A program made the position numbers and the translations under genes. Positions 17,517-43,848 of a stretch of DNA of 64,000 nt are shown here, in pieces (positions within the stretch are counted from its first letter, which is position 1; every line of letters begins with the position of its first letter). Source of the DNA: Spongiibacter nanhainus (GTDB lineage: Bacteria > Pseudomonadota > Gammaproteobacteria > Pseudomonadales > Spongiibacteraceae). The notes below the pieces were generated by a model. The model saw nothing but the letters and a program-made list of their open reading frames with translations, did no database searches and had not been told where the DNA came from. The stretch is taken from assembly GCF_016132545.1 (NCBI RefSeq), contig NZ_CP066167.1:1639001-1703000 (forward strand), read 5' to 3'.

Positions 17517-17524
17517 CAAACGCG

Positions 17525-17551: not shown

Positions 17552-17580
17552 GCGTTCTAGGGGTCTTTCAAGCCGTCAGG

Positions 17581-17590
17581 CAGACCGTCA
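17581..17590 (+). repeat. Candidate integrase arm-type site, left end
   Basis: CAGACCGTCA, preceded by a partial copy GCCGTCA at 17572. The same 10-mer occurs twice near the right end (33835 and 33847), in the same orientation, and is 65 bp inside attL. Confidence 0.5.
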
Positions 17591-17608
17591 ATTTTTGTCG
17601 ATACCCCT

Positions 17609-18235: not shown

Positions 18236-18237
18236 AT

Positions 18238-19044: not shown

Positions 19045-19138
19045 AATCAGGTCCTTTGATAGCCGCAAATGTTTATGTCTTTGATGTGGATATGCCTGTA
19101 GCGGACAATTGTTTCCTGCGAGAAAGACAGCTTGGTTT

Positions 19139-20932: not shown

Positions 20933-20955
20933 CAATCCTTGATCGTCGCAATACG

Positions 20956-25132: not shown

Positions 25133-25223
25133 TGGGGTCTCTAAACGTAAAATAAGCGAAGTGGTTATTTTAACTTTGCTTTTAAAATAAAATAAAGCGG
25201 AGATTTAATTTACTCTGTTGAGG

Positions 25224-28200: not shown

Positions 28201-28736
28201 CGCTGCGACTCCTTGTCCTGCTGGTCGGCTTTGGTGGCGAGTTCAGCGTTGAGTTGCTCGATTTCTTTTTGCAGTTCCCTGAGTCTGAGACTGGGGTCGT
28301 GAGGAGGGACAAAGGGGCCAGGCTTGAATTGCGTACCCGACTTACCGAATGAGCGGTGATACCACACAGCCAATGCACGGGCGACCTTCAGACCCTGCAT
28401 GGCCTCCCGGTGGAGGGTCTTGAACTGATGGGTGGCTTTGTTGCCCTCAATGCGCAAGGTATGGAATAGATTGCGGATATCTGGCTCGAGCGTTATCTCG
28501 CGATTAAGGCGATACAACAGGTCAGCTTGGTTGGTGCCCTGGTCAAATTCGAGGCCGGCTCGGGCGGCAAGGTCCTGAGCTAAGGCTTCGCCCAACTGTC
28601 TCAGCTTTATCAGTGTGGTATTGGGATCGGACGCAAACACATACTCGGCGGCGGAGGCCAAGTGTAGGAAAATCGGGTCATGTTCGCCTAAAAAGGCAAA
28701 GTTACTGCTTGGCGGCTCAGTGCTTTTGCTGCCCAT
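25224..28736 (-). CDS. hsdR: Type I restriction endonuclease subunit HsdR
   Basis: 1170-residue translocating nuclease subunit. Order: DUF4145-like N-terminal domain, a long Gln/Glu-rich coiled coil (about residues 155-255), the PD-(D/E)xK nuclease (DYVLFAG...PIAVVEAKREN, about 305-325), an SF2 helicase with Walker A ATGTGKT (about 475) and DEAH box IIIDEAH (about 575), and a C-terminal EcoEI-type region. An in-frame codon exists at 28820, but ATG 28736 has GAGGG just upstream and opens the conserved domain. First gene of the defence operon. Confidence 0.95.
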   Translation of the reverse strand: MGSKSTEPPSSNFAFLGEHDPIFLHLASAAEYVFASDPNTTLIKLRQLGEALAQDLAARAGLEFDQGTNQADLLYRLNREITLEPDIRNLFHTLRIEGNKATHQFKTLHREAMQGLKVARALAVWYHRSFGKSGTQFKPGPFVPPHDPSLRLRELQKEIEQLNAELATKADQQDKESQRDELLEAEKQEYQQLAELMDQEARQFEEQAKAAEAQLDTERKQFAKQLAALQEQLAANTANAAQQRTDVKAKTQSASKTLVLDEEMTRVFIDQMLMDAGWEADTQALTYQSGARPEKGTNKAIAEWPTRTGRADYVLFAGLIPIAVVEAKRENKNVAGMIPQAERYAKGFELTPPQVSAWEHQGRSIAWPDEADGHYQIPFVFSCNGREYVKQLTEQSGTWFRDVRHPSNTSRALSSFHSPDGLLDLLTRDRLKAEQELQQEGMAYLKLRDYQQKAITAVEEALSRNQRECLLAMATGTGKTRTIIGLMYRFLKTERFRRVLFLVDRNALGTQALDAFKEATLEQNHTLTEIYTVNELGDIVLDAETRVQVATVQSMVKRIFMSDHPPPVDAFDCIIIDEAHRGYTLDQEMTDGELAVRDTDQYLSSYRRVLDYFDAVKVGLTATPAKHTSEIFGKPVYTYSYREAVADDWLIDHEPPIRYETLLTRNNIHFDKGETVQAINTSTGEIEASELEDELDFEVESFNRGVINENFNRVICEQLAQELDPFGDEKTMIFCATDLHADMVKRLLDAAFSELYNGEYNQAAVAKITGQSDKVSQLISRYKNERYPNIAITVDLLTTGIDVPPICHLVFLRRVKSRILYEQMIGRATRRCDEIGKTVFRIYDPVDIYAALQDVSTMKPLVRNPNITLEQLCDELTDPAKLEASLNAPGDDTDHSHADTVLSQLGQKVMQVMRKAGKRGETNPQVKKKLEELEYSWGVEPTKLHQHLHTLGPKQASEFLTQHSGFLQQLAEVKTLLGSDHMPVLSDHEDELVARDQSYGKYEKPQDYLDSFNQFIRQQVNQSAALSAVVNRPRDLTRDQLKEIRLLLDEHGYTEPTLRSAWRQQTNQDIAASIIGHIRRAALGEAMVPFEQRVQSGIERILSQHNWTPLQRKWLTRLGKQLTNEVIIDRDAINQLPAFNGGAKQLDKVLNNQLDMVIDGLGEALWPDSA

Positions 28737-29185
28737 CAATCCCTCGAGCGTTATTATGTCGCTTGGCCATATCCACAGCCAGATAGTTAGGACTATATGA
28801 GAAATCTCGGCGACCCACAAACCCTGTTTGATGCGGTGGCTTTAGTTTATGTTGTGTCAACGATGGTAGTGGAGCACCCGGTCGTCTTTAATTTGTTAGA
28901 GCAAGTCTTCCGGTTGATCAAAAAGCGACCAGATAATGCCGACTATTGAGTAGTTGATAGCCCCGGGTCGCCGGTAGCCCACGAAGCGCCAGCGTAGTGG
29001 GGATGCCGGCGGCACGGGGCACGGGATATAAGGAAGAGGATCGGATTTAACATAGGACTGATTATGCGGCGCAGGCGGACAGTGCTCGTCACTGCGCATA
29101 ATCCCGTCTTATGTTGAACCTGGGACATCCTTATTCCGACCAACAAAAAAAGAACGAGCACCCGGTAAGGGTACTCGCAATCCAA
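28737..29185. other. 449-bp gap without a convincing gene
   Basis: The region between hsdR and the radC-type gene has only short, unsupported frames. It contains the imperfect inverted repeat at 29047-29118 and probably the promoter of the hsdR-led operon. Otherwise I see nothing definite. Confidence 0.6.
29047..29118. repeat. Imperfect 22-24-bp inverted repeat
   Basis: The left arm (29047-29068, core ACATAGGACTGATTATGCG) and the right arm (29095-29118, core CGCATAATCCCGTCTTATGT) are near-complementary around a 26-bp centre that itself contains GCGCAG/CTGCGC. It looks like a protein-binding or recombination site, not a terminator. Confidence 0.55.
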
Positions 29186-29665
29186 TCAAATCAGGCCTTT
29201 CTCGGCAAAGGACAGTGTGCCTTCGACAGTAACCAGGATGTGATCCAAGGTGCGTACATCGATAAGAGATAGCGCGTCTTTCAGCTTTTTGGTTATAGCC
29301 TTGTCGGATTGGCTTGGCTCAAGGTTTCCGGACGGATGGTTATGCACCAGGATGGCTGCGGCGGCGTTGTGCTCTAGGGCTTTTCTGACCACGACCCTGG
29401 GGTGTACGGCGGCGGAATCTATGGTGCCGCGGAACAGCTTTTCAAAGGCGACCATCTTATGTTGGTTATTGAGGTACAAGGCGCAAAACAGCTCCTCGGA
29501 TTCCGTGGCTATTTCAAGCTGGCAGTAGCTCTGGACATGGGCGGCGCTGGTGCAGGCGACACCCTCGCGAAGTGTTGATGCCAGTATACTGATGGCTTCT
29601 TGGATGATGTGCTCCTGGGTTGGGCTCAGTGAGGTGGGTGGAAATGTTGAGAGCGAGTTCTCCAT
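29186..29665 (-). CDS. RadC-type JAB-domain protein
   Basis: 159-residue RadC/JAMM-domain protein lacking the N-terminal HhH part of full-length RadC. The metal motif appears as HNHPSG (about residue 107) followed by S-x2-D (PSQSDKAITK), with the glutamate earlier in the chain. Such short RadC proteins are typical cargo of integrative elements; the biochemical role is not settled. GGAG lies about seven bases before ATG 29665. Confidence 0.9.
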   Translation of the reverse strand: MENSLSTFPPTSLSPTQEHIIQEAISILASTLREGVACTSAAHVQSYCQLEIATESEELFCALYLNNQHKMVAFEKLFRGTIDSAAVHPRVVVRKALEHNAAAAILVHNHPSGNLEPSQSDKAITKKLKDALSLIDVRTLDHILVTVEGTLSFAEKGLI

Positions 29666-30015
29666 GATATGGCTCCGGTCTTTAGTTGGCAGAGGAGGGG
29701 TATGAACGGCTGCAATACCATCAGTGATACCCCGGCTTTGGCGGGAAGCGCCTGAACAGGGGCGGAGCCAAGTGCTCTCTTGCTTAGTGAGCTAATCCGA
29801 ACAGTTGGAAGCAAAAAGCGGTGGGGGGTATCCCTACAGCACGCAATTAGATCGCTACCGGGGGGGGGAGGTCACAGAAGTGTGAGCCGACAGACCAGCA
29901 CTGGGGGCGTAGGCAGATGAGATATTTTTGAAAAACCTGCGGATATGTGATGACTACCAGGCCGTCACCAGCACCCTCGGCGCTGCGGGAAAACTGCCGC
30001 CCCTCCCTCGCGGCC

Positions 30016-30054
30016 CTTCACTTCCGCGCCACTGCGTGGCGTGCTCCAGTGAAG
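30016..30054. repeat. Two-tier hairpin in the gene-free stretch
   Basis: An outer 7-bp arm CTTCACT/AGTGAAG encloses an inner 6-bp arm CGCCAC/GTGGCG with a 3-nt loop. There is no U-run, so a terminator is unlikely. Confidence 0.5.
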
Positions 30055-30379
30055 CTCCACTCGCCTCGGTACGTCATTTTCGCCTCGCTTGGGGTGCTGA
30101 TGTCGGCCTTTCAGCGGCTGGATAGTATGAGGTTGTCTGAAGGCCATTCACTGAGCGCTCCCCAGTTCTGGCATAGGATATCGGCTTTATATAGTCGAAA
30201 TTGCTATTTTTCGTACCGTTAGTATATCGGGAAAGATCAGCGTATGACTCTTAGTACATCGGGTGAATATCGTTTCTTGAAAAATTGTATTTAGAGGGCC
30301 GGTCCGGGCTTAAATGGCTGCTTCGAAGTGCTACGGTGCTACAAGCTAGGCATACCAAAGGTTTGCGGGGAGCGCGTTG

Positions 30380-30461
30380 TGCGACATGCAACACGACAAG
30401 TCCGCGACATATTATTCTTGGCGTTGAGGTTGTGTTGGAACCTTGTCGTGGACATGTTGCA
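30380..30461. repeat. 21-bp imperfect inverted repeat downstream of the DUF3631 gene
   Basis: The left arm at 30380-30400 (ending ACACGACAAG) is nearly complementary to the right arm at 30442-30461 (beginning CTTGTCGTGG), with about three mismatches and one gap. It ends 56 bp from the 3' end of the DUF3631 ATPase gene. Confidence 0.5.
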
Positions 30462-30517
30462 ATCTGCTTTGGCTAGACCCCATGATTCTAGCGGGGTGTA
30501 GCACTGTCGCAGTTTAA

Positions 30518-31861
30518 CTAATGGTTGTTGTACCGGGCAAAGGCGTCAGTAAACTGCTCCCTTTCATAACCACGCCTCGTGCCTATTTCGGGGAAGCGGA
30601 TGTCCTTAGGGCGAATTCCAAAATCAGAAAGCATAGACGCTACTTTATTTTGGGTGATGCTTTTACCCGAACTGAATGTTGACCAAGGTTTTGTAGGGTC
30701 ACCGCAAAGAGTATCTACTAGTGCCTTGGAGGCAATGCGATCATCCTTGTGAGACGCCCACACAGCCTGAATATCCTGCAACAAGAGCCCCTTTGCATCA
30801 GGTTCGGGGATCACGGTTATTGCCTTGTAGGCAGCCTCGCAGCGCAATCCCCAGTCGGCCCCCATGATTTCTGCTACCTTAAATAGTGGGTCCCAATTAT
30901 CCGCTGCCCGGTCGTTGCCAATATTTGGGGCCTCTACGGTAGATTGCTCTACGGCGTGTTTGTTGTCGATGCACCAGCGGAGAAGTTTTTCCCGGTAGAT
31001 TTTATTCAATGTCGCCAGGTTTTCTGGGGGCTTTGAGACTACTTCGTGTGCCAGCTTACGACGCAAGTTAATTACGATGCTCCTATCCATAACTGTTGTA
31101 GGCAGAGCGCCAATTGATCCCAGCGCCACGGGCATCCAAGTGCTGTAGGCTTTCGGTGTATGGTCATCTCCAGTGCAACGCATGACGTATGCTGAGCTCT
31201 TGGTGTGTCCAGAGTTGAGAATGTTAATAAGGTCGGAGTCGGCCGAGCGGATAAGCGAATCGGCCTCATCCAGGAAAATGGTTGGCTGACAGCGCCTTGT
31301 TACCCGGAACATTACTGCCGCCGAAATGTTGGAAGTCATCAGGCAATCTTTGGCAAAGGTGCTAACGACTTCCATCGTAGTAGTTTTCCCGCAACGCTTC
31401 ACCGGGCTCTGAAAAAAAAGCTTGCCGAACACTCGGAAGGAGTTGATCAAGTAACTTGCGATGACCCACAGAACAATTGCGTCTACCTCTTCATCCCGCA
31501 GCACACAATACTTTTTAATGATCTCCGTAATATCGTCGGCTTCCTTTGCCATAGTTACCGGGCTATGCCAGGGTACGAGGCCTTCAGGAAACTCCCGCTT
31601 CGGGGGAGCCAATATTGCGGCATCTGCGGTCTCTAGCTGCCCCTCCTGGACAATGTCAACATGTTCGCCAGAAGTAGGGTCTGGGGCTGCTGCGGTGGTA
31701 GGAAGAAGCGGAAGGTCCGCTTCATTTGTGCTACTCTCGGTAGTGAGGGATGTGTCGTTTGTCATTGCATTTTCCTCATGAGGAGTAAGGGGCTGTTTCT
31801 GCTGGCAGGCGGGCAGCCCCTTTTCTACATCTGAACGTTGAGTATCTGATGTTCCACTCAT
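30518..31861 (-). CDS. DUF3631-containing ATPase (element replication-type protein)
   Basis: 447-residue protein. After a disordered N-terminus (1-90), it has a P-loop variant SPVKRCGKTT (about residue 152) and Walker B-like PTIFLDEAD (about 196), followed by sensor-like VMDRSIVINLRRK and a C-terminal DUF3631 part (SKALVDTL...GIRPKDIRFP). Such proteins in satellites and integrative elements are thought to be helicase or primase-helicase-like. It starts at 31861, overlapping the upstream stop by four bases (ATGA), so it is translationally coupled to the winged-helix gene. Confidence 0.82.
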   Translation of the reverse strand: MSGTSDTQRSDVEKGLPACQQKQPLTPHEENAMTNDTSLTTESSTNEADLPLLPTTAAAPDPTSGEHVDIVQEGQLETADAAILAPPKREFPEGLVPWHSPVTMAKEADDITEIIKKYCVLRDEEVDAIVLWVIASYLINSFRVFGKLFFQSPVKRCGKTTTMEVVSTFAKDCLMTSNISAAVMFRVTRRCQPTIFLDEADSLIRSADSDLINILNSGHTKSSAYVMRCTGDDHTPKAYSTWMPVALGSIGALPTTVMDRSIVINLRRKLAHEVVSKPPENLATLNKIYREKLLRWCIDNKHAVEQSTVEAPNIGNDRAADNWDPLFKVAEIMGADWGLRCEAAYKAITVIPEPDAKGLLLQDIQAVWASHKDDRIASKALVDTLCGDPTKPWSTFSSGKSITQNKVASMLSDFGIRPKDIRFPEIGTRRGYEREQFTDAFARYNNH

Positions 31862-32172
31862 GGCGTAATACCTTTGAAGGTGTAGTGAGCCACGTTTTTG
31901 TGAGTCCAGCCGTTGCGGTCAGTATCGCTGCGGCACTGCGTTTCAATGATCGCTCCCATGGCCCGAAGCCGACTAACGTAATTGCTTGGATGTAGCAGCC
32001 CTTCGTTCACTAACGCAAGGCTGCTTGTACCCTTCGCACCAGATTCGACAATTAAGGCCAGAGTCAGCGCAAGACGATGCGGGAGGTGGGCTGGCTTCGT
32101 ATAGGGAGCCGGCGGAGCCACAAAGTAGAAGTTTTTCTTGCGGGCTGGGGTGATCAGATTGCAAGTATTCAT
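31858..32172 (-). CDS. Small winged-helix DNA-binding protein of the element
   Basis: 104-residue basic protein with a predicted helix-turn-helix/winged-helix core (LALTLALIVESGAKGTSSLALVNEGLLHPSNYVSRLRAMGA in outline, about residues 35-75). GGAGG lies seven bases before ATG 32172, which overlaps the AlpA stop by one base (TAATG), so it belongs to the same operon. A frame to 32217 exists but would run into the AlpA gene. Probably a regulator or replication accessory (inference). Confidence 0.68.
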   Translation of the reverse strand: MNTCNLITPARKKNFYFVAPPAPYTKPAHLPHRLALTLALIVESGAKGTSSLALVNEGLLHPSNYVSRLRAMGAIIETQCRSDTDRNGWTHKNVAHYTFKGITP

Positions 32173-32441
32173 TAACAGTCCTCCATTTTGCGAGTAGCAA
32201 TACGACTCATTACCCAATCATCTACCTCGCTCTCGACCCAGCCGCGAGAGGCGCCGCCCGGGACGATTGCCAAGCTACTTGGGAATAGACCTTTGTTTGC
32301 TAAGAGGTAGATGTGGGACTTAGAGAGCCCTGTTTTCAACATCACGTCCTTGACACGGATGATGCGGATATTCCTTTGAGAGTTAGCCGTCTCGAGGTTG
32401 TTGGGGCTTTGGTTTAGGTCGCGTTTGAGCGGTTTTGGCAT
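32172..32441 (-). CDS. AlpA-family transcriptional regulator
   Basis: 89-residue MerR-like helix-turn-helix protein of the AlpA type. The pattern IIRVKDVMLKTGLSKSHIYLL and PGGASRGWVESEVDDWV is diagnostic. These small proteins activate excision or element genes in P4-type satellites and islands. ATG 32441 with GAGG nine bases upstream is preferred over the in-frame codon at 32456. First gene of the AlpA-winged helix-ATPase operon. Confidence 0.9.
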   Translation of the reverse strand: MPKPLKRDLNQSPNNLETANSQRNIRIIRVKDVMLKTGLSKSHIYLLANKGLFPSSLAIVPGGASRGWVESEVDDWVMSRIATRKMEDC

Positions 32442-32570
32442 AGTTGCACACCTCATTTGTCAGTGGTTGCAAGCCGTCATTAACGAAGGCTTGATAGTGA
32501 CTTTGAGGGAAGTGCAAAAAAATATCTGAACTTTTTGCACCACTGGGTGCAGGGGGGCCTATGTAGTGCT

Positions 32571-33794
32571 CTATGGGCAATCCGGAGAAGTCCGAAGCTT
32601 GTCTAAGTAGTCCGCCCACTCCTGCATCATCCTGATACGCTCGTCCATTAGTTGGGCTTTGTTGTAGGTAGCCCTCACCCTATCCTTATTCACGTGGGCA
32701 AGCTGAAGTTCCACAGCGTCAGGGGAATATCCCATCTCATTCAGGAAGGTGCTGGCGGTGTGTCGAAATCCATGGCTAGTCATAAAGCCAGTGCCAAATG
32801 GTTGACCTGTTTTAGGGTTTATAAGTCGCTTGATGGCTGCTGTGGTGGTGTTCTCGCTCATTGGCTTTCCATGGCCGTGGCTGGTCACAAACACGTATGA
32901 GCTCTGGGCTCCGAGTTTTTTCACCTCCTCCAATACCGCGATCGCCTGGGTCGCGAGTGGTACTTTTAGCTCCTTGTTGGACTTCATCTCTGAACCCGGA
33001 ATAGTGAGCATATTTGCCTTGAAATCGATGTACTCCCATTTCATGAATCGAATATTGTAAGGGCGAAGAAAAAGAAGGGGCATCAGCTTGAGCGCGGCTG
33101 TGGTAAATGGGCTTTGGCGGGCGCTCGGGCTGTGAATTTGCGTCAACAGGTTCTTAAAGTCCTCCTCAGCAGTGATGTGGCCGAAGTTGGTCTTTTGTCG
33201 GTGGTCTGGCTTGGGGAGTAGTTCAGCAAGCCCTTGCGCAGGATTATTGTCAATCATGCCCAATAGCAGGAGGTCGTTGAATACCTGCCTCATGATGCCT
33301 GCCATGCGCTTCGCCGTCTCTTTGGCGCCTCGCTTTGCGATTGGAGTGAGTATCTCCAGCAATTCTCTGGTTGTGAAGCTATCCACGGATCGCTTGTCTA
33401 GGGCAGGGTATATGTTTTTTTCAAGGCGTTGCTCCAGGTCGTGAAGGGTGGTCACCGCGTAGTTCTGCTTGGCTATCCAGTCCTTGCAGTAGTCACTAAA
33501 GCGCATGTCCTGAGCAGCTTTTTTAGCTTCCTCAAAACGCTTAGCGTCTGTGGGATTCTGACCCTGGCTGACCAACTTTCGCGCCTGTAGGTGAGCTTCT
33601 CGCGCCTCTTGAAGTGAAGTTTCTGGGTAGGTGCCTATTGTAAAGGTGCCTTGTTTACCATTGAGCCTGTAACCATATTTCCAGGTCTTAGTGCCCGATT
33701 TGCGCACTATAAGGTGAAGCCCGCCTTGGTCAAATAACTTGTAGTCGCTGTCCTTTGATTTGGCATTTTTGACGCTTGTGGCTGTGAGCGGCAT
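32571..33794 (-). CDS. int: Tyrosine integrase (DUF4102/P4 type)
   Basis: 407-residue site-specific recombinase that integrates and excises the island at the tRNA. The N-terminal DUF4102 arm-binding domain (residues 1-85, SDYKLFDQGGLHLIVRK) is followed by a core-binding domain and a catalytic domain with Arg (FLRPYNIR, about 240), HGFRHT (about 338) and the Tyr in ATYNKAQ (about 376). ATG 33794 opens the family N-terminus; a frame to 33857 exists but lacks a ribosome site. The 10-bp repeats lie just upstream of its start. It points into the island, with attR about 180 bp behind its start. Confidence 0.95.
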   Translation of the reverse strand: MPLTATSVKNAKSKDSDYKLFDQGGLHLIVRKSGTKTWKYGYRLNGKQGTFTIGTYPETSLQEAREAHLQARKLVSQGQNPTDAKRFEEAKKAAQDMRFSDYCKDWIAKQNYAVTTLHDLEQRLEKNIYPALDKRSVDSFTTRELLEILTPIAKRGAKETAKRMAGIMRQVFNDLLLLGMIDNNPAQGLAELLPKPDHRQKTNFGHITAEEDFKNLLTQIHSPSARQSPFTTAALKLMPLLFLRPYNIRFMKWEYIDFKANMLTIPGSEMKSNKELKVPLATQAIAVLEEVKKLGAQSSYVFVTSHGHGKPMSENTTTAAIKRLINPKTGQPFGTGFMTSHGFRHTASTFLNEMGYSPDAVELQLAHVNKDRVRATYNKAQLMDERIRMMQEWADYLDKLRTSPDCP

Positions 33795-33834
33795 ATCTGG
33801 GATTCCAACTTGAGCATGTGGCGGAGGAGCTAGG

Positions 33835-33856
33835 CAGACCGTCATCCAGACCGTCA
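33835..33856 (+). repeat. Two candidate integrase arm-type sites, right end
   Basis: CAGACCGTCA at 33835-33844 and again at 33847-33856, in the same orientation as the copy at 17581. They lie between the integrase start and attR, so occupancy could also control int transcription. Confidence 0.5.
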
Positions 33857-33973
33857 TTTGGATAGGATGCTATAGTTCGCTCTGGAATTGATGATACAGT
33901 AACCTATTGAATATAAACAAATATAAATTTATTGTTCGTCGTATACGTCCTATGTATTATTGTTTTCGACGTT

Positions 33974-33990
33974 CTCCTTCTCCGCCATAA
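33974..33990 (+). repeat. attR core of the island
   Basis: Exact 17-bp copy of the sequence at 17500-17516. Beyond it the chromosomal repeat and terminator begin. Confidence 0.9.
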
Positions 33991-33996
33991 ATAAAG

Positions 33997-34021
33997 AACC
34001 CGGCTCTGTGCCGGGTTTTTT
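33997..34021 (+). terminator. Terminator, first repeat copy
   Basis: Stem AACCCGGC/GCCGGGTT with a 5-nt loop and six T. Before the island inserted this would have been the first terminator after tRNA-Ser. Confidence 0.9.
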
Positions 34022-34171
34022 ATTTGAGGTGAAGGCGGGAGAGAAGCCTCGTCGGGTTCGATAAAATGCGCCGCATTTTAGACGCCGCCGCGCAGCGGAG
34101 GCGCCCCGCAGGGGGCAAAGCAGGCCTTAGCCTGGTTTGATCAATCCCTCCTTCTCCGCCATAAATAATAG

Positions 34172-34196
34172 AACCCGGCCCCGTGCCGGGTTTTTT
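34172..34196 (+). terminator. Terminator, second repeat copy
   Basis: Same stem as the first copy with loop CCCGT and six T, in the second 174-bp unit. Confidence 0.9.
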
Positions 34197-34307
34197 ATTT
34201 GGGGAGAAGGCGGGAGAGAAGCCTCGTCGGGTTCGATAAAATGCGCCGCATTTTAGACGCCGCCGCGCAGTGGTGGCGCCCCGCAGGGAGAGCCCGGGTG
34301 TGGTCTA

Positions 34308-34968: not shown

Positions 34969-35370
34969 TTACTCCAGTGCTGCCAGTAAGCGCTGCAATT
35001 TGCCCTCATCAAGGGGCTTGTTTTCAAAGCAGTGGACACAGTCGAATTGTTTGGCGCGTTCACGGTCATCGGGGTTTAGCGAGGTCGTCAGCATGGCGAT
35101 GACTGCACCAGCTTTGCACTCGTCCGGCAGATCTCCATAGCTGCGCAGGAATTCCCAGCCATCCATTCTGGGCATGTTGATGTCCAGAAATATCAGGTCG
35201 GGCTGAGGGTAGCCCACCTCTGTTGCGGTTGTCAGATACTCAAGTGCTTCGAGGCCGTCGCCGGCTTCGGTTATGGCGTCGCAAATTCCGCACTCTTCAA
35301 TAACCATCCGGTGCAGGAAGTTAGTGGCTGCGTCGTCATCAATCAGCAGGATCGAGTTTATTTTTTTCAT
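34969..35370 (-). CDS. Single-domain response regulator
   Basis: 133-residue receiver domain alone, with acidic pocket DDD (about residue 10), phospho-acceptor Asp in FLDINMP (about 61), a Thr in MLTTS, and the conserved Lys in NKPL. There is no output domain, so it must act through protein contacts. AAAGGAGG six bases before ATG 35370 is an unusually strong ribosome site. The gene overlaps the end of the upstream kinase gene by 32 bp. Confidence 0.93.
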   Translation of the reverse strand: MKKINSILLIDDDAATNFLHRMVIEECGICDAITEAGDGLEALEYLTTATEVGYPQPDLIFLDINMPRMDGWEFLRSYGDLPDECKAGAVIAMLTTSLNPDDRERAKQFDCVHCFENKPLDEGKLQRLLAALE

Positions 35371-37324
35371 TGACAACCTCCTTTAAGGTAAACACAACAC
35401 AGGTGCCGTTGGGGGCGTTACCCTCTATCCAGATGTCGCCACCGTGTAGCTTAACGACTTTAAGACAGTGGGCGAGACCAATTCCTGTACCCGGATAATC
35501 TTGGCGATTGTGAAGCCGTTTAAATACGCCGAACACCTTGTCCCGGTATTCTTCCGGTATTCCTATGCCGTTGTCACAGACTGCAAATTGCCAACCGCTA
35601 TCGACGGGCCGCGCGGTGATTTTGACCTTTGGCTGGACCCCCACCTCGGTAAATTTAAAGGCGTTGGAGAGCAGGTTTTGAAACAGTAATCTCAGCTCCG
35701 TTTCCAGTCCAATGACATTTGGTAACTCTTTGTACTCTACTACTGCACCGCGGCTAGTCATAGTGCCGGATAAATCGTCCTCTACATCCTGCACCAGCTG
35801 CATTAAGTTTATGGGTTTTGGCGTCAGATCACGTCCGATGCGCCCATAGTCCAATAGGTCTTTTACCAAGTCCTGCATGCGCGCACTTGCGTCGTCGATA
35901 AAACCCATCATCTGTTTGCCACGCTCGTCGAAGTGGCTGACGTACTTTTTGTTGATTACATCGACAAAGCTGCGCACCGTACGCAGAGGCTCTTGCAGGT
36001 CGTGGGAGGCGATATAAGTGAACTGCTGCAGCTCACGGTTTTTGTTGTCCAGCAAGGCAATTTTTTCTTCCAGTTCATTTTGCGCTCTATTCTTTGCGGC
36101 AACTTCTTGCTCGAGCTTGCGTTGTTGATCTTTTGTTATATCGCTTGCCTCATCCAATGATGAGGCCAAAAAATAAAACTCTGCTGAGGCGTATCTCGGT
36201 AACGATGCCCGCAGCTTGCCTTGACCAGTGGCCCCTTTTAAGACTTGCTTAGACATCAGCTCAATCGGTCGGGCCAGGCGCCGGGAGGTCGCCACGCTGA
36301 TTAGGATTGCCAGTAGAAACAGTAATATTAAGATAAATACGGTTTGTCGGATGACCATGCTGCGCACCTTTACCGCGTCTGCATTGTCGCTGCGCAGTGC
36401 AAGATACATATTGCTATTGCCATGGTAGGGGATGGGTGCCACTGCTATGGTGTAGTTTTCGTGATGATATAGATCCTGATTTTCTGCAGTGATGGACGTG
36501 TTAAGTGGTGGAAAGTCAGTGAGAAAGTTATGAAGCTCGCCATTTTTGGCTATTAACGTTCTATTCGGGTCCGGATGAAAAAGGTATTGGCCAGCGTCGT
36601 TAATGACCATTAATTGATGCGTGGGGTCGCTAAAAGATGGTAGCAACTGCAGAGCTTTATTCAATGCCAGGTTGATTATTACGATGCCAAAACGCTCGTC
36701 AGTCACCCCGTTAAACAAGGGGACGGCGGCACGCACAACAAGTTGCCGAGGCTCGGCGATTTTGCCAAATTCTCTGTTGAGATCTACCTGGGAGAAATAG
36801 ATTTCACCACGTGGCAGAGCATTTGCAGCCTGGAAGTAATCCCGCTCACTTTTATCCTGTAGGTTTTGTCTGGACACCACCCTCAACTGGCCATTGGCGC
36901 CGTATTGGTCCACCCGAATTAGCTCTTTTCCGGTATGGTGGATCAGCCTCATTTGGGCGTAACGGGGTTTAGCCCTTATCAGGCCGGAGAAGAGTTGTGT
37001 GACATCCTCTTGCCATGGATTATTCGCAGATTCTAATTCAGTGTCCCTTGATGCCTGAATATACTGGATAAGAGCTGGAAATTGAGCGACCTGTTCCAGC
37101 TCAACACCAAGGGCGGCGATAGTGCGCTGCAAATAATAGGATAGCGCTTTGGTATCGCTTTGTAACAGCAAGTCGTCTTTTGCTTCCAGCTCGCGGTCCA
37201 GAGCCAGGTAAGTGGTGCCCAGAGTCATCATGTTGCTCAACACCACCAGGGCAATGGTGATCAGCAGGATGTGAAAGAAGATCCGTTGGTGCGGACGCCC
37301 CTTGTAGATGGCAGGTGTGTTCAA
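35339..37324 (-). CDS. Cache-domain sensor histidine kinase
   Basis: 661-residue membrane kinase: TM helix at about 15-40, a large periplasmic double-Cache-like sensor (about 45-320), a second TM (about 325-345), HAMP-like segment, coiled coil, HisKA with SHDLQEPLRTV (His about 439) and HATPase with DNGIGIPEE and GTGIGLA. Similar ends occur in phytochrome-type kinases that pair with single-domain regulators, consistent with the overlapping downstream receiver gene. The start is a TTG at 37324 with a weak ribosome site. Ligand unknown. Confidence 0.9.
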   Translation of the reverse strand: MNTPAIYKGRPHQRIFFHILLITIALVVLSNMMTLGTTYLALDRELEAKDDLLLQSDTKALSYYLQRTIAALGVELEQVAQFPALIQYIQASRDTELESANNPWQEDVTQLFSGLIRAKPRYAQMRLIHHTGKELIRVDQYGANGQLRVVSRQNLQDKSERDYFQAANALPRGEIYFSQVDLNREFGKIAEPRQLVVRAAVPLFNGVTDERFGIVIINLALNKALQLLPSFSDPTHQLMVINDAGQYLFHPDPNRTLIAKNGELHNFLTDFPPLNTSITAENQDLYHHENYTIAVAPIPYHGNSNMYLALRSDNADAVKVRSMVIRQTVFILILLFLLAILISVATSRRLARPIELMSKQVLKGATGQGKLRASLPRYASAEFYFLASSLDEASDITKDQQRKLEQEVAAKNRAQNELEEKIALLDNKNRELQQFTYIASHDLQEPLRTVRSFVDVINKKYVSHFDERGKQMMGFIDDASARMQDLVKDLLDYGRIGRDLTPKPINLMQLVQDVEDDLSGTMTSRGAVVEYKELPNVIGLETELRLLFQNLLSNAFKFTEVGVQPKVKITARPVDSGWQFAVCDNGIGIPEEYRDKVFGVFKRLHNRQDYPGTGIGLAHCLKVVKLHGGDIWIEGNAPNGTCVVFTLKEVVNEKNKLDPAD

Positions 37325-37366
37325 GGTAGGAACTCAGTTGGCCCAGTGTATGTATATAGATTCTAG

Positions 37367-38530
37367 CTAATCCGATGTGCTGCAGGTGGTGGGTTTAGCT
37401 ACGGTAAAGTGGAAGGTTGAGCCAACATCCGGTGTTGATGTCACCCATATCTGTCCTCCCATCAGTCCAACAGCTTTTCTACAAAAGCTTAGCCCCAGTC
37501 CACACCCAGCGGGGCCGCGGCCTTTGTGCAAACGCTTCAGATAGTCAAACACCCGTTCCAGATCAGCGGCGGCAATACCCTGACCATTATCTGCAACAGC
37601 GAATCGCCAGTGATCACCGGTATCTACCACTGAGATCACAATATGGGGTGGTATGTCTGGCTTGGCGTATTTAATGGCGTTCAGCACCAGGTTATACAGC
37701 ACCTGGTTGATCAGCACTGAAGATGCTGTGATGCGGCAGTCTGCGGAGAGTTCGATCTGTGCGTGACTGCTTTCGATATCGTAGCGAAGGTCGTAGCGAA
37801 CCTGTTTCAGTACTTCAGCTATCGAGAAGGCTTCGGTTTTATAGTCGTCGTGCTCTATGGTGGCAATCCGGTGAAGGGCATCGATGAGCGACACCATGCG
37901 CTTCATCGATTTTTCGACCTCTTCCAGAAGTCTTGTGCTGGTTGCATCGAGTTTGTCGGCGCTGCGTTGGTAAACCAGATTAAGCGCTAATCCGGCATTG
38001 CCAATGGGGCCTTTCAGGTCGTGGGAGATGGCATAACTGAAATTGCGGAGTTCATCATTTTTTTCTTGTAACTGTAGCTCGGCCTCCTTGAGGGAGGTCA
38101 CATCAGTATGGGCCCCCAATAGGCGGATAGGTTTGCCTTGCTCATTGCGCATTGCCAGGCCCCGACATCGAATCCACACAGTATGACCGTCGGAGTGACG
38201 ATAACGAACGATTTGATCATAGGGGTGGTTAGGATCGTCGCAGTGGTGGCGGAAATTCTCAATGGCAAGCTCGAGATCTTCCGCAAAAATAATATCCTGC
38301 CACGCCGATGCTTTGTGGGGCATTTGAGCGGGATCGTAACCCAGGGACTCCCAGAAGCGCGGACTCATCCACTCGTTCTCGGGTTGCTCTAAATCCCAGT
38401 ACCATACGCCGTCCAGGCAACCCGATTGGAGGAACTCGAATACCGTTGCATCTTGTCTTACGCGCTCGTAAAGCTCGCGCTGGAGGTAGTGTTCAGCGCC
38501 GGGCTTGGCTGGTGCGGTTGTGGCTGACAT
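37367..38530 (-). CDS. PAS-domain sensor histidine kinase
   Basis: 387-residue soluble kinase: PAS/PAC sensor (about residues 30-150, GVWYWDLEQPENEWMSPRFWESLGYDP in outline), a short coiled coil, HisKA with SHDLKGPIGN (His about 170) and HATPase with DNGQGIAAAD and GCGLGLSFCRK. No membrane segment. GGAAAG precedes ATG 38530. It is 42 bp ahead of the Cache kinase gene, so kinase, kinase and receiver form one cluster of three. Confidence 0.92.
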   Translation of the reverse strand: MSATTAPAKPGAEHYLQRELYERVRQDATVFEFLQSGCLDGVWYWDLEQPENEWMSPRFWESLGYDPAQMPHKASAWQDIIFAEDLELAIENFRHHCDDPNHPYDQIVRYRHSDGHTVWIRCRGLAMRNEQGKPIRLLGAHTDVTSLKEAELQLQEKNDELRNFSYAISHDLKGPIGNAGLALNLVYQRSADKLDATSTRLLEEVEKSMKRMVSLIDALHRIATIEHDDYKTEAFSIAEVLKQVRYDLRYDIESSHAQIELSADCRITASSVLINQVLYNLVLNAIKYAKPDIPPHIVISVVDTGDHWRFAVADNGQGIAAADLERVFDYLKRLHKGRGPAGCGLGLSFCRKAVGLMGGQIWVTSTPDVGSTFHFTVAKPTTCSTSD

Positions 38531-38743
38531 AGCAGGCTTTCCGTACTGACGTTGGTTATTGTGGGGGAGCGCCGTTTTCAGTGCTCCTTGCCTAACAGTA
38601 CTAATGGTAAAAGTAGTCTGTGATGCTAGTTTGAGCCAGTCTTTAGAGTGAATTAATACGGTGTATTACTTAAGGTTATATAGATATTAAAGCCCTGTTA
38701 TTTTTGCGGCGTGCTGCTGTATTCCCCCTCAAGTCCGGACTCT

Positions 38744-40045
38744 TCAGCTTGGGTGTTGGCGAAATAGGCTCTGAAAGTGCGCCTGTATGTTTTTCAGGTC
38801 GATGGCTGCAAAGCCACTGGAGAAGCCAAACCACACATACAGACCATTGAGGTCTCGGAACATGGGTGGCAGGTAGCGGGGCGGGGCAATTATCTGCTCT
38901 TTGTGATAGTGGTACAGAGTGGGGATATCGTCCAGGGCCACTTTGCCGGCAAACAGCCAGGGTAGCAGCTCTGGCCGGTCTGCCAGAATGGCACTGCGAA
39001 TGAAATTGACGGTTTCCACCAGGCCGCGAACATAGGACAAATCCTTGGTGAAACAGGCGCCACCGGCCACATCACCGCCACGAAATACCCGCTGGGCAAT
39101 TTTATAGCTTTCCCTTTGCCCAAGACCCTGGTTTATAAAATGGCGGTAGACCTCCATAAAATCGGCGCCGGCCTCTGCCATATCTATGGCGACAACCCGA
39201 TCGCTAATGCGTCGGGCCCGACCGGGGAAGGAGCTGAAAGTCAGGGTTTCAATCAGCACCGCCAGGCCCTCTTGCAGGGCGGTAATGCGCGGTGAGCCGG
39301 CACTTAGCCAGGTGGCCCAGGGCTGGTTGCGCCCGTTGAGTGTGGTGCCGACATGAACCCAGCCCTCGTGGACTTCCAGAACCTGAAGGTCCAGCTTTGA
39401 GAAGGCGGCGTGGGTATTGACCTTGATACAGTCACCACCGGCGGAGGCATCCGACACAATGCCGTCGGTCTCTTTGACGGTAAAAGCGCTGTCGACAAAG
39501 TAGGGTTGCAGTCGTTGACGCAAGATATCCACCGCCGCTCCGGCTTCAATATTTTTGGGATGAGAGGCGTTGAGGTGCTGGGCCGCTGGCAGTGAGAAAA
39601 TCTCACACAAGCGCTTGCCCAAGTCGATCAAACTCAAAGTGTCGCCGCGCAGCGCATCCCGGGTCGAGCCGTATAAGGTCTGGCTAGCCGCCTGGAAAGC
39701 CGGGGTTCCGCGGTTTTCCAGCATGCTCACAACGGTCTGATACTGATTCAATGTCTGTAACAGAATGCGCCCCAGCGGGTCGTCGGCCCCCAATCGTTGA
39801 GTAATGGTATGGGCGATGCTCTCCAGCTCTCGGCGCTTGTCGTCCGGATCGAAGCCCAACGGGTTCATGCGCGCATAGTCTTCTCGGCTAATGGCAGGAA
39901 GGCGCTTTGCGCCGTCGGCAAAGAACTCGACTTCGGTCTGCTGGGGCCACTTGATGGCATCGAGAATAAGAATGGGCTTTTGCGCACTGATCATGGCATC
40001 AGAGCAATGCTTCAAGGCCTCAAGATAGGTTTGGGGCTGAGTCAT
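38744..40045 (-). CDS. DUF1704 / QEGLA-motif metallopeptidase-like protein
   Basis: 433-residue protein of the family annotated 'flavohemoglobin expression-modulating QEGLA motif'. It shows HEGWVH (about residues 224-229), an HExxxH zinc motif, and LQEGLAVLIETLTF (Glu about 259), whose glutamate would be the third ligand. The same arrangement defines the human tubulin carboxypeptidase MATCAP/KIAA0895L, also a DUF1704 protein. A carboxypeptidase-like activity is therefore plausible (inference). It starts inside the stop of the upstream GNAT/C39 gene (ATGA), so the two are coupled; the RimK-type ligase is divergent next door. Confidence 0.85.
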   Translation of the reverse strand: MTQPQTYLEALKHCSDAMISAQKPILILDAIKWPQQTEVEFFADGAKRLPAISREDYARMNPLGFDPDDKRRELESIAHTITQRLGADDPLGRILLQTLNQYQTVVSMLENRGTPAFQAASQTLYGSTRDALRGDTLSLIDLGKRLCEIFSLPAAQHLNASHPKNIEAGAAVDILRQRLQPYFVDSAFTVKETDGIVSDASAGGDCIKVNTHAAFSKLDLQVLEVHEGWVHVGTTLNGRNQPWATWLSAGSPRITALQEGLAVLIETLTFSSFPGRARRISDRVVAIDMAEAGADFMEVYRHFINQGLGQRESYKIAQRVFRGGDVAGGACFTKDLSYVRGLVETVNFIRSAILADRPELLPWLFAGKVALDDIPTLYHYHKEQIIAPPRYLPPMFRDLNGLYVWFGFSSGFAAIDLKNIQAHFQSLFRQHPS

Positions 40046-41193
40046 GGCGAATCCACATTTTCTATGGCTAACAGACAGCGCAGCCGGCGTTTACCAAAAC
40101 TGGCCATGCCGACAAAGCGATCGATGGCAATGGGCACATGCACAAACTCTGCTTCAGACTGTCCGGCCTGCTCCTCGGTATCCGGGTCGTGGATGTAGAC
40201 ATAGTTGCGGTCGGAGCGGTGTATATAGACCCAGTGAGGAGCGCGATTGCGATTCAAAGACCAAGTGCTGATCAGCGCGACCAAGTGATTGTGCCGATCT
40301 AGCGCCTCGCTAAAGGTGGCGTTATCCAGGTGACAGGTTGTCAGTGTATCGGGGTAGTCCTGTAGCTGATCCAGGAAATCGTCGTGTACCAGTTGAATGA
40401 CTTCCCGTTTGTGGGGATCGCGAACACTGTCTATAAAGGGCGTGCCACTATCGTTGATATACATCAGTACCTGAAAATGTCGCCGCAGCGCGGCCAATGC
40501 CAAGCCCTGTGGTGAGCAGCCGCCGTGACCGCTGGTCATAAAAATGGTGGTCGCTTCCCGCCACAGTTGCAGCTCGTTGCGTCGGTCCATAGGTGTGGTG
40601 GGGCGCAGCGCATGCATGGCCATCATCAGTGATGCGGGACCACAGGTAAACTCTGTGGTCTGTCGATAGTATTTGGGGGCGTTGAGTGCGCTACTGCGCA
40701 CCAGGCTGGTCAGGCGTTTTTCGTAGCGCAGCGCGTCGCAACCGTCGTCGTAGTAGTCGGCGACCTGGCCAAAGCGCTGGTAGCCGCAGCGCTGGTAGAG
40801 CGCAATGGCGGCTTCATTGTCGGTGCGTACCTCCAGTCGCAGATAAACGCTGTCTAAGGCAGCGGCGCATTCCTCGGCATCCTGCAGTAAGCGTTGGGCA
40901 AGCCCCTGACCACGTCTCTCAGGTGCCAGCGCCAGGGAGTACAGCCGTGCCAAACTGGTGCCGCGCCGCAGCAGAATCAGGCTGTAGCCGGCGATTGTGT
41001 CGTCGATGAATAGCGCCCTGAGCCTATGAGGACCGGGCTGACAAAAGCGTTTGAAACTGCGGCGTGAAAGGCGGTCGCTGTCGAAGCAACGAGCCTCTAG
41101 TGCGACCAAGGCGTCGACATCGCTGAGTACGGCTTGACGAAATTGGATAGACACCAGGGCATGGCACGCTGAACGGATAAGTCGCGCCATCAT
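40042..41193 (-). CDS. GNAT acetyltransferase fused to C39-like peptidase domain
   Basis: 383-residue two-domain protein. The N-terminal GNAT domain (about 15-150) has LALAPERRGQGLAQRLL with the acetyl-CoA loop; the C-terminal half begins YYRQTTEFTCGPASLMMAM (Cys about 183), a C39-type nucleophile context, and closes with His in PHWVYIH and Asp in YIHDPD as plausible triad members. No membrane segment. The frame starts with TTG at 41202, with ATGs at 41193 and 41190 more likely. It overlaps the DUF1704 gene by four bases. Confidence 0.83.
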   Translation of the reverse strand: MMARLIRSACHALVSIQFRQAVLSDVDALVALEARCFDSDRLSRRSFKRFCQPGPHRLRALFIDDTIAGYSLILLRRGTSLARLYSLALAPERRGQGLAQRLLQDAEECAAALDSVYLRLEVRTDNEAAIALYQRCGYQRFGQVADYYDDGCDALRYEKRLTSLVRSSALNAPKYYRQTTEFTCGPASLMMAMHALRPTTPMDRRNELQLWREATTIFMTSGHGGCSPQGLALAALRRHFQVLMYINDSGTPFIDSVRDPHKREVIQLVHDDFLDQLQDYPDTLTTCHLDNATFSEALDRHNHLVALISTWSLNRNRAPHWVYIHRSDRNYVYIHDPDTEEQAGQSEAEFVHVPIAIDRFVGMASFGKRRLRCLLAIENVDSP

Positions 41194-41292
41194 ACTGCGC
41201 AAAAATTACCCAGTCTATCGGCGTGAAAACTATTGTGGCAGGGGCGATTCAGTCGCAGAATGCCGGTTTTTCCACGCCCCTGAGTGACGCCC

Positions 41293-42759
41293 ATGTCGCG
41301 CTTTTATGTGGTGGTCGATGACCCCAAAGATTGGTCGCCTTACTACCCCAGCCAGGATGTGATCAGCTTCGATCACTACCTGGAATCTGTTCATCACAAC
41401 TCTGCAGAGCGAGTGCGAGTCATCAATTTGTGCCGCTCCTACCGTTACCTGGGTACCGGCTATTATTGTTCACTGCTGGCGGAGGCCAGGGGCCATCATG
41501 TACTGCCCTCAGTGAAGACCTTAAGTGAACTGTCCCGCAAGTCGCTGGCAGCCATTCAGTGGGAAGAGGCCAACGCACAGTTGACCAAGTTGCCCGCTGG
41601 CGATGAGGGTGAGCAGCGGTCGGTGCGCACGTGGTTTGGCGACACTCTGGCGACGTCCTTCAAGGGAATTGCCAAGGCAGTATTCGAGCGCTTTCCCTGC
41701 CCGCTACTGGAGATCTCCCTGGAGTACCGCAGTCGCTGGCGCATTCGCAAAGTACAGGCCCTACCACTGAGCAGTTTAAAGGATGCTGAAGAGCAAGAGG
41801 CCTTTGCCAATCGCTTTGAAAGCTTTAGCAGCAAAATGTGGCGCAGGCCTAAAGCCCGCAAAAGTTTTCGCTATGACCTGGCGATACTGATGGATCCGCA
41901 AGAGGCGCTGCCGCCGAGTAACAAAAGCGCGCTGCAGAAGTTTATCCGCGCTGCTGAACAAATGGGGATTTCCGCCGAGAAGATCACCAAGCGGGACTAC
42001 CAGCGCCTGGCTGAGTACGACGGCCTGTTTATTCGGGAGACCACGTCGGTGGATCATCATACTTATCGCTTTGCCAAAAAGGCCGAGGCGGAGGGTTTGG
42101 TGGTCATCGATGACGCCACCTCCATCCTGCGCTGTACCAATAAAATTTACCTGGCTGACCTGCTGAGGGCCAATAAAGTCCCCGTGCCCAAAACGGCGTT
42201 TTTACGCCGGGACAAAGAGGGCGAGCTTGAGCGGTTGGTTGACGACTTGGGACTGCCCATGGTGCTCAAGGTCCCCGACGGTGCCTTTTCCAAAGGTGTG
42301 GTCAAGGTCGACGATTGGCCGGCGCTGGCCGCCGAGAGCCAGCGCCTGTTGGTCAAGTCCGCGTTGCTGCTGGCCCAGGAGTTTATGTACACCGATTACG
42401 ATTGGCGTATCGGTGTACTGGATGGCAAGCCTCTGTACGCCTGCCGTTACTACATGGTGAGAAACCACTGGCAGATCTACAAGCATGGTAAGAGTCGCAG
42501 TCAGTCCGGCGGCTTTGACACCATGCCTACCTACGAGGCACCCAAGCCGGTGCTGGATGCCGCCGTCAAAGCGTGTCGCCTGATCGGTAAGGGTTTCTAC
42601 GGCGTCGACCTAAAACAGAGCGGCGACAAGGTGGTGGTCATTGAGGTCAACGACAACCCCAGCATCGATGCGGGGGTTGAGGATCGCTATCTGGGCGACG
42701 GCTTATACCAGGCCGTAATGGAAGTGTTCCGTCAGCGGATGGAAAAACGCGGACGCTGA
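41293..42759 (+). CDS. RimK-type ATP-grasp ligase with RLAN N-terminal domain
   Basis: 488-residue predicted amino-acid/peptide ligase. The N-terminal part (1-170) matches the RLAN domain that precedes RimK-like ATP-grasps, with DDPKDW and SYRYLGTGYYCSLLAEARGH in outline; the ATP-grasp domain runs from about 230, with MVLKVPDGAFSKGV (about 323) and the metal motif VIEVNDNP (about 451). It should form an amide bond using ATP, adding an amino acid to an acceptor. ATG 41293 is preferred to the in-frame GTG at 41284. Divergent from the GNAT/C39-DUF1704 pair with a 99-bp gap. Confidence 0.87.
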   Translation: MSRFYVVVDDPKDWSPYYPSQDVISFDHYLESVHHNSAERVRVINLCRSYRYLGTGYYCSLLAEARGHHVLPSVKTLSELSRKSLAAIQWEEANAQLTKLPAGDEGEQRSVRTWFGDTLATSFKGIAKAVFERFPCPLLEISLEYRSRWRIRKVQALPLSSLKDAEEQEAFANRFESFSSKMWRRPKARKSFRYDLAILMDPQEALPPSNKSALQKFIRAAEQMGISAEKITKRDYQRLAEYDGLFIRETTSVDHHTYRFAKKAEAEGLVVIDDATSILRCTNKIYLADLLRANKVPVPKTAFLRRDKEGELERLVDDLGLPMVLKVPDGAFSKGVVKVDDWPALAAESQRLLVKSALLLAQEFMYTDYDWRIGVLDGKPLYACRYYMVRNHWQIYKHGKSRSQSGGFDTMPTYEAPKPVLDAAVKACRLIGKGFYGVDLKQSGDKVVVIEVNDNPSIDAGVEDRYLGDGLYQAVMEVFRQRMEKRGR

Positions 42760-42777
42760 GCTGTGAATTTTAGCCCT

Positions 42778-43848
42778 TCAGGGTTCCCGGCCCGGTGCCA
42801 GGCCGCACTGTGAAAGCAATGCCTCGACAGCGGCCACATGGTCGCGTTGGGCTGCCTTGGCGGCATCAAGTAGCGCGTCCCGCTGTCTTTGCCACTGTCG
42901 ATAGGTTTCGGGGATCGCATTCCCCGAGGCCGATAGCGCCCCAGCCAAATCAGCCTCTATTTGACGTACCGCACCCAGTAGAGCCAGCTGATGGCGGTTG
43001 GCATCGCTGGCTTGGCGCTGCAGGCCGGTGATAAAAAACTGACTCACCACATTCTGAAAATAGCGGGCTTCGTTGATGGGCTGGCGGTTTAAACACAGCG
43101 GGCGGCCCTCCACGCGCTGGCGGATCATGGCGGTGCTGCGGCGCAGACCATCCAGAGTCGTTTGCTGGAAGGCCAGTAATTCACCGCCACGACCGTGGCG
43201 GAGCTGACCCAAGGATTCCAGAAGCGCGTCGCCGCTGTGCTGCCACTCGCCCCGCAACCAAGCCGCTTGCCAGCGCTGCCATTGCCTGAGTGCCTGGACC
43301 GCGGGGTCGGCCTCTTGAGGGGGGTAATCCCGTTGACGCTGAGGGGGCTGCCAGATCTGCCGAAACTCCTTGCCGGCCAATAGCGCCATAAACAACCTCG
43401 CTGGCAAATCGCGCTGTTTGCTTGCTTGGGCGTCGATTAAGGCCTGGGCCAGCTCGCTGTCGTCGTCGGCCTTAAGCTCCTCGATGCAGGCGGGCGCTTC
43501 GTTGAGAAAGCGGAGATCAAATATTAAGTGGCTGGAGGCGTCCCCGTGCCGGCCGAGAATGCTGTTTCGCTCGGCCAGTGTTTCCCGCAACTTGCAGCGC
43601 CGCAGGCGCAGGAACTCCAGTAGGTTAATATCGCTTTGTGAGAACGTCAGCGCCAGCTCTCGGGTACGGGGAAATTGGGGGTAGGGTGGTGGCGCCGGGT
43701 CAGGTATTGCCACATCCAACACCCGGCTCAGGCGGGTAAGGTAATCCTCCCAGGCGGAGTTTGCCGACGATGTGCTGTCACAGGCGCTGAGCGCAATAAG
43801 CAATGCCAGCGCCGCCAAGCGGGGCGGCGCTGAAAGAAATGCCCTCAT
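42778..43848 (-). CDS. DUF3080 lipoprotein
   Basis: 356-residue lipoprotein with signal and lipobox LSAC (Cys about residue 24). The DUF3080 family pattern is visible: YPQFPRTREL, INLLEFLRLRRCKLRETLAERNS (in outline, about 75-97) and a C-terminal helical tail. No function is known to me. Its ATG overlaps the glutathione peroxidase stop by four bases (ATGA), so it is translationally coupled to that gene. Confidence 0.85.
   Translation of the reverse strand: MRAFLSAPPRLAALALLIALSACDSTSSANSAWEDYLTRLSRVLDVAIPDPAPPPYPQFPRTRELALTFSQSDINLLEFLRLRRCKLRETLAERNSILGRHGDASSHLIFDLRFLNEAPACIEELKADDDSELAQALIDAQASKQRDLPARLFMALLAGKEFRQIWQPPQRQRDYPPQEADPAVQALRQWQRWQAAWLRGEWQHSGDALLESLGQLRHGRGGELLAFQQTTLDGLRRSTAMIRQRVEGRPLCLNRQPINEARYFQNVVSQFFITGLQRQASDANRHQLALLGAVRQIEADLAGALSASGNAIPETYRQWQRQRDALLDAAKAAQRDHVAAVEALLSQCGLAPGREP

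Follow-up and report, generated by a model that had tools for sequence, protein, structure and literature searches.

A MATCAP-family metallopeptidase gene linked to a GNAT-C39 and RLAN-ATP-grasp ligase module throughout one bacterial family

Why should a gene for an enzyme predicted to form amide bonds stand next to genes for two predicted peptidases? The question is raised by a locus of Spongiibacter nanhainus (Gammaproteobacteria, Spongiibacteraceae), located in a stretch of 64,000 nucleotides (contig NZ_CP066167.1 of assembly GCF_016132545.1, positions 1,639,001 to 1,703,000 of the forward strand) that is hereafter called the window and from whose first letter its features are numbered. At this locus, a ligase with an RLAN domain and a RimK-type ATP-grasp part is encoded divergently from a fusion of a GNAT domain with a C39-like papain-fold peptidase (DUF3335; the fusion is called GNAT-C39 below), which is followed by a metallopeptidase of the MATCAP (DUF1704) family. 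A first-pass annotation had read the three genes as one set, comparable to tubulin tyrosine ligase (TTL) and human MATCAP, that might add and remove the tail of a protein or peptide. We found that the trio is half general and half local: MATCAP is no part of the widespread module formed by the other two genes, yet it is locked onto that module in the window's family. The data support a locus of ligase, papain-like peptidase and metallopeptidase whose linkage is kept through one bacterial family. Its features are as follows.

38744..40045, minus strand: MATCAP/DUF1704 metallopeptidase (TIGR02421, 'QEGLA motif protein'), 433 amino acids (aa)
39260..39274, minus strand: QEGLA motif, MATCAP residues 258-262, with E259 as the predicted third metal ligand
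39353..39370, minus strand: HEGWVH (HExxxH), MATCAP residues 226-231, predicted to be metal-binding/catalytic
40042..41202, minus strand: fusion of a GNAT domain with a DUF3335 C39-like papain-fold peptidase, 386 aa; an inner codon may be the true start
40642..40644, minus strand: codon of Cys187, predicted catalytic residue of the C39-like domain; the His323 codon is at 40234-40236
41203..41283: intergenic region between the divergent GNAT-C39 and ligase genes, the site of DUF2817 in many relatives
41284..42759, plus strand: RLAN + RimK-type ATP-grasp amide ligase, 491 aa
42637..42660, plus strand: VIEVNDNP, ligase residues 452-459, an ATP-grasp motif that we take to bind Mg-ATP

The three genes are real and correctly named, and their active-site motifs are intact. 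All three open reading frames (ORFs) of the first-pass annotation, with their positions and family names, were borne out by the ORF list, Pfam and NCBIfam. The MATCAP protein matches PF08014 with 440.2 bits (cut-off 27) and TIGR02421 with 363.3 bits (cut-off 338.65); in Pfam, the GNAT-C39 protein matches DUF3335 (PF11814, 264.6 bits) and Acetyltransf_1 (61.1 bits), and the ligase matches RLAN (PF14401, 159.2 bits) and RimK/ATP-grasp_3 domains. HEGWVH, QEGLA and VIEVNDNP, the motifs named at first pass, are all present, and their key residues are invariant in alignments: H226, E227, H231, Q258 and E259 in 20 MATCAPs, and E454, N456, D457, N458 and P459 in 30 ligases. The papain-like site of the window's GNAT-C39 protein is made up of Gln181, Cys187, His323 and Asp339, of which the first three are invariant in 25 aligned rows and Asp339 varies. 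The proposed relation of DUF1704 to human MATCAP was confirmed by a profile of 20 MATCAPs, which reached human MATCAP structures in the PDB (7z5g, E 1e-9; 7z6s, E 4e-8) with HExxxH and EGLA aligned to 7z5g (EEGLA there); as a single-sequence query of the PDB, the window's MATCAP did not reach them. In human TMCP1, the E316A mutation strongly lowered activity, and the enzyme could be reactivated with Co and Mn, not with Zn (PMC10499314). The catalytic metal site of the window's MATCAP is predicted from its motifs.

The GNAT-C39 and MATCAP ORFs share 4 bases (40042-40045), which is the overlap reported at first pass. The ligase gene is divergent, as had been said; the 99 bp given for the gap is obtained with the inner ATGs at 41193 and 41293, and the longest ORFs leave 81 bp. 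For the ligase, the ATG at 41293 agrees with relatives better than the GTG does, and both inner ATGs may be taken as candidate starts. The sole promoter-like match in 38500-43000 lies at the GNAT-C39 edge of 41203-41283 and is not above chance.

How general is the arrangement? Among 199 genomes of the phylum, 46 have RLAN, 38 have DUF3335 and 37 have both, and for 35 of the 37 the distance between the two domain matches is at most 1.7 kb; the exceptions are one genome with the matches far apart (G006) and one with them on different contigs (G169). At the level of the class, RLAN is present in 91 of 370 genomes. When the window's locus is excluded, a GNAT-type neighbour accompanies RLAN at 71 of the 90 class loci, namely a fused GNAT-C39 at 59 and GNAT alone at 12, and DUF2817 lies between ligase and GNAT-C39 in 5 of the 59. 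A GNAT or GNAT-C39 neighbour was likewise found in 77 of 80 named loci, which are the best 80 of 587 and biased toward close relatives; of the three loci lacking this match, L152 and L155 run into a contig end and L159 does not. The RLAN ligase and GNAT, with or without C39, form a widespread, almost inseparable module. Iyer et al. 2009 (Mol BioSyst) reportedly treated amidoligase neighbourhoods of RLAN and GNAT-C39 (DUF3335); the present analysis adds the linkage of MATCAP within one family and the comparison with DUF2817.

Genomes G062 and G058 each have two RLAN ligases (L102 and L139 against L101 and L138), of which one lies by GNAT-C39 and the other by GNAT without C39. At L133 (G172:C15), two extra DUF3335 genes lie away from RLAN, and in one of them (15273-16394) the GNAT part is divergent.

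Members of DUF3335 are often fused to GNAT domains, and the fusions have been read as possible peptide ligases or acylases (PMC10318531, citing Iyer et al. 2009). The same source reports that the C39 peptidases of transporters cut off leader peptides, in keeping with a pathway for modified peptides in which C39 and MATCAP cut a precursor peptide to yield a substrate for completion by the ligase and GNAT. We consider such a maturation role very improbable, since DUF3335 is treated there as a separate family, a close relative of PF09778, and no conserved small ORF stands by the trio in the family; elsewhere, the scans covered ORFs above 80-90 aa.

MATCAP is the local half of the trio. Co-occurrence across genomes, which had been proposed as a check on the three-gene set, was found within the window's family and fails elsewhere. 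MATCAP is present in 60 of the 370 class genomes and occurs together with RLAN in 16, which is chance level (Fisher p=0.74); in the phylum sample both occur in 9 genomes, a weak excess (p=0.023, kinship ignored). Linkage of the two was seen in 0 of 8 other two-gene genomes of the phylum sample and 0 of 15 of the class sample (G145 is in both), counts that rest on contig positions and flanks, with the genes on different contigs in several of these genomes. Nor did MATCAP turn up beside the ligase at the other 90 RLAN loci of the class, where flanks of at most about 6-7 kb were covered, some of them truncated by the end of a contig. A general three-gene system is therefore rejected: the partner that the ligase keeps is GNAT(-C39), with DUF2817 in many genomes, and not MATCAP as the grouping into one set had implied.

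An adjacency private to the window organism was also considered and was overturned by a search of the family. Of 21 family genomes, 20 hold both genes, and the genome without them is 70% complete. In all 20, MATCAP lies directly downstream of GNAT-C39 and RLAN is divergent, across two genera and at ligase identities of 62-77%; the trio is carried, for instance, by contig C35 of G211, from the window's genus, and by NZ_PQGG01000040.1 of Zhongshania marina. In the 19 relatives, MATCAP and GNAT-C39 are separated by -8 to +38 bp, and the flanks are less kept, with DUF3080 adjoining the trio in 12 of the 19, glutathione peroxidase in 9 and an exonuclease in 6. The linked MATCAPs and two unlinked ones, from G426 and G184, form one subclade (23 rows, support 100/100), and G426 retains DUF2817 at its own RLAN locus (L256).

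These results bear on the view that MATCAP is a passenger, that is, a general metallopeptidase which landed downstream of GNAT-C39 in an ancestor of the family and was kept by shared expression, with no action on what the ligase makes. Co-occurrence at chance level through the class agrees with this view, as do the subclade members from G426 and G184, which are unlinked though both genomes have RLAN. We nevertheless regard it as unlikely, because all 20 genomes keep the linkage, even where ligase identity falls to 62%, with the gaps given above and flanks less kept, and because other ATP-grasp ligases also neighbour MATCAP (11 of 40 loci, described below).

How might MATCAP have come in? Full-length DUF2817 lies between RLAN and GNAT-C39 in both trio-bearing genomes of the sister genus; it is found in 2 of 3 genomes of that genus and in 0 of 18 of the window's genus, with weak partial matches elsewhere only. 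The four-gene order of the sister genus is repeated in a named metagenome-assembled genome (L141), and 13 of the 80 named loci have DUF2817. In the phylum sample, 31 genomes have full-length DUF2817 and 22 of these have RLAN (p=4e-10, kinship ignored). The DUF2817 gene lies less than 3 kb from RLAN in 13 genomes and from DUF3335 in 1 more, and these 14 genomes belong to families f31 (12) and f32 (2). Seven aligned DUF2817 rows retain HGxEG, DxNRN, DxHxG and LEFGT, the motif set of M14 carboxypeptidases, and the DUF2817 protein of L058 gave weak matches in the PDB to 4oko (E 0.0066) and to 3ieh, a 'putative metallopeptidase' (E 0.33). A DUF155 (RMND1/YagE-type) gene was observed near DUF2817 and an RLAN or GNAT-C39 gene in several genomes (L111, L121 and relatives).

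In a ligase tree made from the window, 5 of the 19 family relatives, 23 of the 80 named loci and every third GNAT-C39 class locus, with short, 'none' and partial loci left out, the window falls in a supported clade of 9 rows that contains three locus types: MATCAP (4), MATCAP with DUF2817 (3) and DUF2817 (2). MATCAP probably joined, and then outlasted, a DUF2817 metallocarboxypeptidase, the sister genus having both and the window's genus only MATCAP. The simplest series is that DUF2817 came first, MATCAP was added and DUF2817 was lost. Two metallopeptidase families are attached to one module, and this is the best sign that carboxyl-end trimming is part of the module's work.

What, then, might the module make? 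A second type of RLAN operon, found in 13 of the 90 class loci, comprises a C39_2 papain-like peptidase, a GCS2 carboxylate-amine ligase and an N-formylglutamate amidohydrolase, which share the strand of the ligase in the loci drawn; L270:3100-7498 is an example, besides the 12 further class loci. Of the remaining loci of the 90, 3 are partial and 3 have no partner at all. The 13 loci lie in one ligase clade of 15 rows with support 100. GCS2 and N-formylglutamate amidohydrolase are enzymes of small molecules, and it is mainly because the second-type operons carry them that we prefer a small peptide as the product.

MATCAP itself keeps related company elsewhere. Of 40 MATCAP loci, 11 contain an ATP-grasp ligase, and none of 40 control loci has one in addition to RLAN (Fisher p=0.0004, kinship ignored); the MATCAP loci were drawn from 38 of the 60 MATCAP-bearing genomes of the class and 2 of the phylum sample, and the controls are 36 RLAN loci and 4 with DUF3335 only. 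Eight of the 11 ATP-grasp genes have a glutathione-synthetase-type look (Pfam-checked in L089 and L090), and in L090 MATCAP is fused to an N-formylglutamate amidohydrolase beside a glutathione-synthetase-like ligase. The other three are RimK-like and lie by or near a PF05618-type (RimB-type) gene, as determined by Pfam in L069 and by clustering and profile in L073 and L076; at these loci MATCAP is possibly a second deglutamylase of a ribosome-modification locus. Longest-ORF gene calling was misled by antisense ORFs in some genomes, and the later counts come from profile searches.

From these data we infer the reactions, their order and the product as follows. Our preferred reading, held tentatively and with rather less than even confidence, is that the GNAT-C39/RLAN-ATP-grasp module with its added MATCAP builds and trims a small N-acylated peptide from one locus. 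The GNAT domain would acylate an amino acid or a short peptide, whose carboxylate the RLAN-ATP-grasp enzyme would activate with ATP for the attachment of an amino acid. The C39-like papain-fold domain would cleave or transfer within the product, and MATCAP would trim residues off its free C-terminus, a job that the M14-like DUF2817 would perform in relatives. The product would most likely be a small N-acylated peptide.

A partial parallel among known pathways is the synthesis of the osmolyte N-acetylglutaminylglutamine amide (NAGGN) by AsnO, Ngg and an aminopeptidase, in which, as proposed here, acetyl transfer and peptide-bond formation are encoded together with a peptidase. Ngg contains an ATP-grasp part. 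PMC8070244 classes Ngg as a GNAT-family acetyltransferase that both N-acetylates a glutamine and links it to a second one, and reports an aminopeptidase in the operon. Unlike the enzymes of the present locus, Ngg does both steps in one protein. The NAGGN synthetase profile TIGR03103 reached 22.1 bits against a cut-off of 569, in the GNAT part of the GNAT-C39 protein only, and no asparagine-synthase-like gene was found among the five genes scanned at the locus.

The tubulin tyrosination cycle, which had served as the first model for the locus, resembles it in combining an ATP-grasp ligase with a MATCAP-family peptidase (TTL and MATCAP/TMCP), TTL having the ATP-grasp fold. The likeness to TTL did not survive: the ligase matches RimK-type families, and Pfam-A gives no TTL domain match in it at E <= 0.001. 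A target protein, moreover, is seen for the tubulin system only.

A protein target is nevertheless possible in another form, with less in its support than the small N-acylated peptide. The RLAN-ATP-grasp enzyme would lengthen a protein at its C-terminus, and the added residues would be taken off again by MATCAP together with the C39 domain, in the manner of RimK and RimB acting on ribosomal protein S6 (RpsF). RimK/RimB is the closest proven bacterial cycle, and a RimK-type ATP-grasp ligase is paired in it with a peptidase that undoes its work: RimK adds glutamates to RpsF and the retropepsin-like RimB removes them (PMC11957791). The nearest described families of our ligase are RimK-type, and MATCAP stands by a rimK-like gene with a PF05618-type neighbour in three of the 40 MATCAP loci (L069, L073 and L076). 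RimB differs in being a retropepsin-like aspartic protease, whereas the peptidases of the locus are papain-like and metallo-type, and a Pfam scan of the trio and two flanking genes gave no PF05618 retropepsin-like gene. The ligase scores below the RimK cut-offs (TIGR00768, 73.7 versus 143.4; PRK10446, 23.9 versus 331), and the window's genome has a separate and far better RimK match at genome positions 3905607-3906170 (E 4.7e-63); modification of S6 is therefore probably not the task of the RLAN enzyme. MATCAP was missing from nearly all of the RLAN loci examined, the second-type operons carry GCS2 and the amidohydrolase, and no common extra partner was found among neighbours of at least 90 aa. 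A search of the family for a conserved small gene near the trio that might encode the substrate found none: of 23 small ORFs (20-95 aa) by the window's trio, 4 recur in relatives, all of them antisense inside DUF3080, and the first-pass remark that no substrate gene is visible nearby holds to this extent. On balance, we judge such a cycle on protein tails to be rather unlikely.

Several points weigh against a small N-acylated peptide as the product. RimI acetylates a ribosomal protein, and RimI is the best GNAT match of the GNAT-C39 protein, below cut-off, which leans to a protein target. Because MATCAP and RLAN are unassociated through the class, MATCAP may work independently of the ligase. 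Two GNAT-labelled rows (L291 and L294) fall inside the clade of the second operon type. The ligase tree came from a quick search with chosen rows and SH-aLRT (Shimodaira-Hasegawa-like approximate likelihood ratio test) support only, and DUF2817 requires several gains and losses on it (7 changes), so that the direction of the added-then-replaced series is a matter of parsimony only. The human and Tetrahymena relatives of MATCAP act on protein tails, polyglutamate included (PMC10499314), which also speaks for the cycle on protein tails. Finally, literature searches on the family names, with subscription papers outside their reach, listed nothing whose title marks it as a functional study of a bacterial MATCAP, RLAN or DUF3335 protein, and no assay of an RLAN ligase, DUF3335 or a bacterial MATCAP appeared among the papers listed.

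The surroundings of the trio in the window were also considered. A defence system was rejected, PADLOC (anti-phage defence) giving 0 families for the three proteins at E <= 0.01. A link to the histidine kinases at 35339-38530 was rejected, as they have no match in the loci of the 19 relatives. Membership in an integrative island was rejected as well, the trio locus lying 4.6 kb outside the island's right repeat. This probable island extends over 17495-34164, the 3' end of a tRNA-Ser gene (17421-17513) being repeated exactly, over 22 bases, at 34143-34164. It contains a phage-type integrase (32574-33857), a type I restriction-modification system (HsdR, 25227-28820; HsdM, 22350-23972; HsdS, 20959-22347), a SoFic-like Fic protein, a GmrSD_N protein, RadC and DUF3631. 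Two direct repeats of 119 bases, 95% alike (33995-34113 and 34170-34288), flank its right repeat copy.

The locus draws attention to the RLAN ligase, a common enzyme for which we found no known product and for which the family-specific linkage with MATCAP may serve as a tractable genetic handle. For the MATCAP family, known from members that work on the tails of tubulin, it provides a setting in bacteria. In the window's family, MATCAP might have taken over, from an M14-type carboxypeptidase, the removal of what the RimK-like ATP-grasp enzyme adds, a proposal that we hold to be doubtful; if true, it would mean a bacterial add/remove cycle built on a peptidase family of the tubulin code, and a role of MATCAP outside tubulin biology would be shown.

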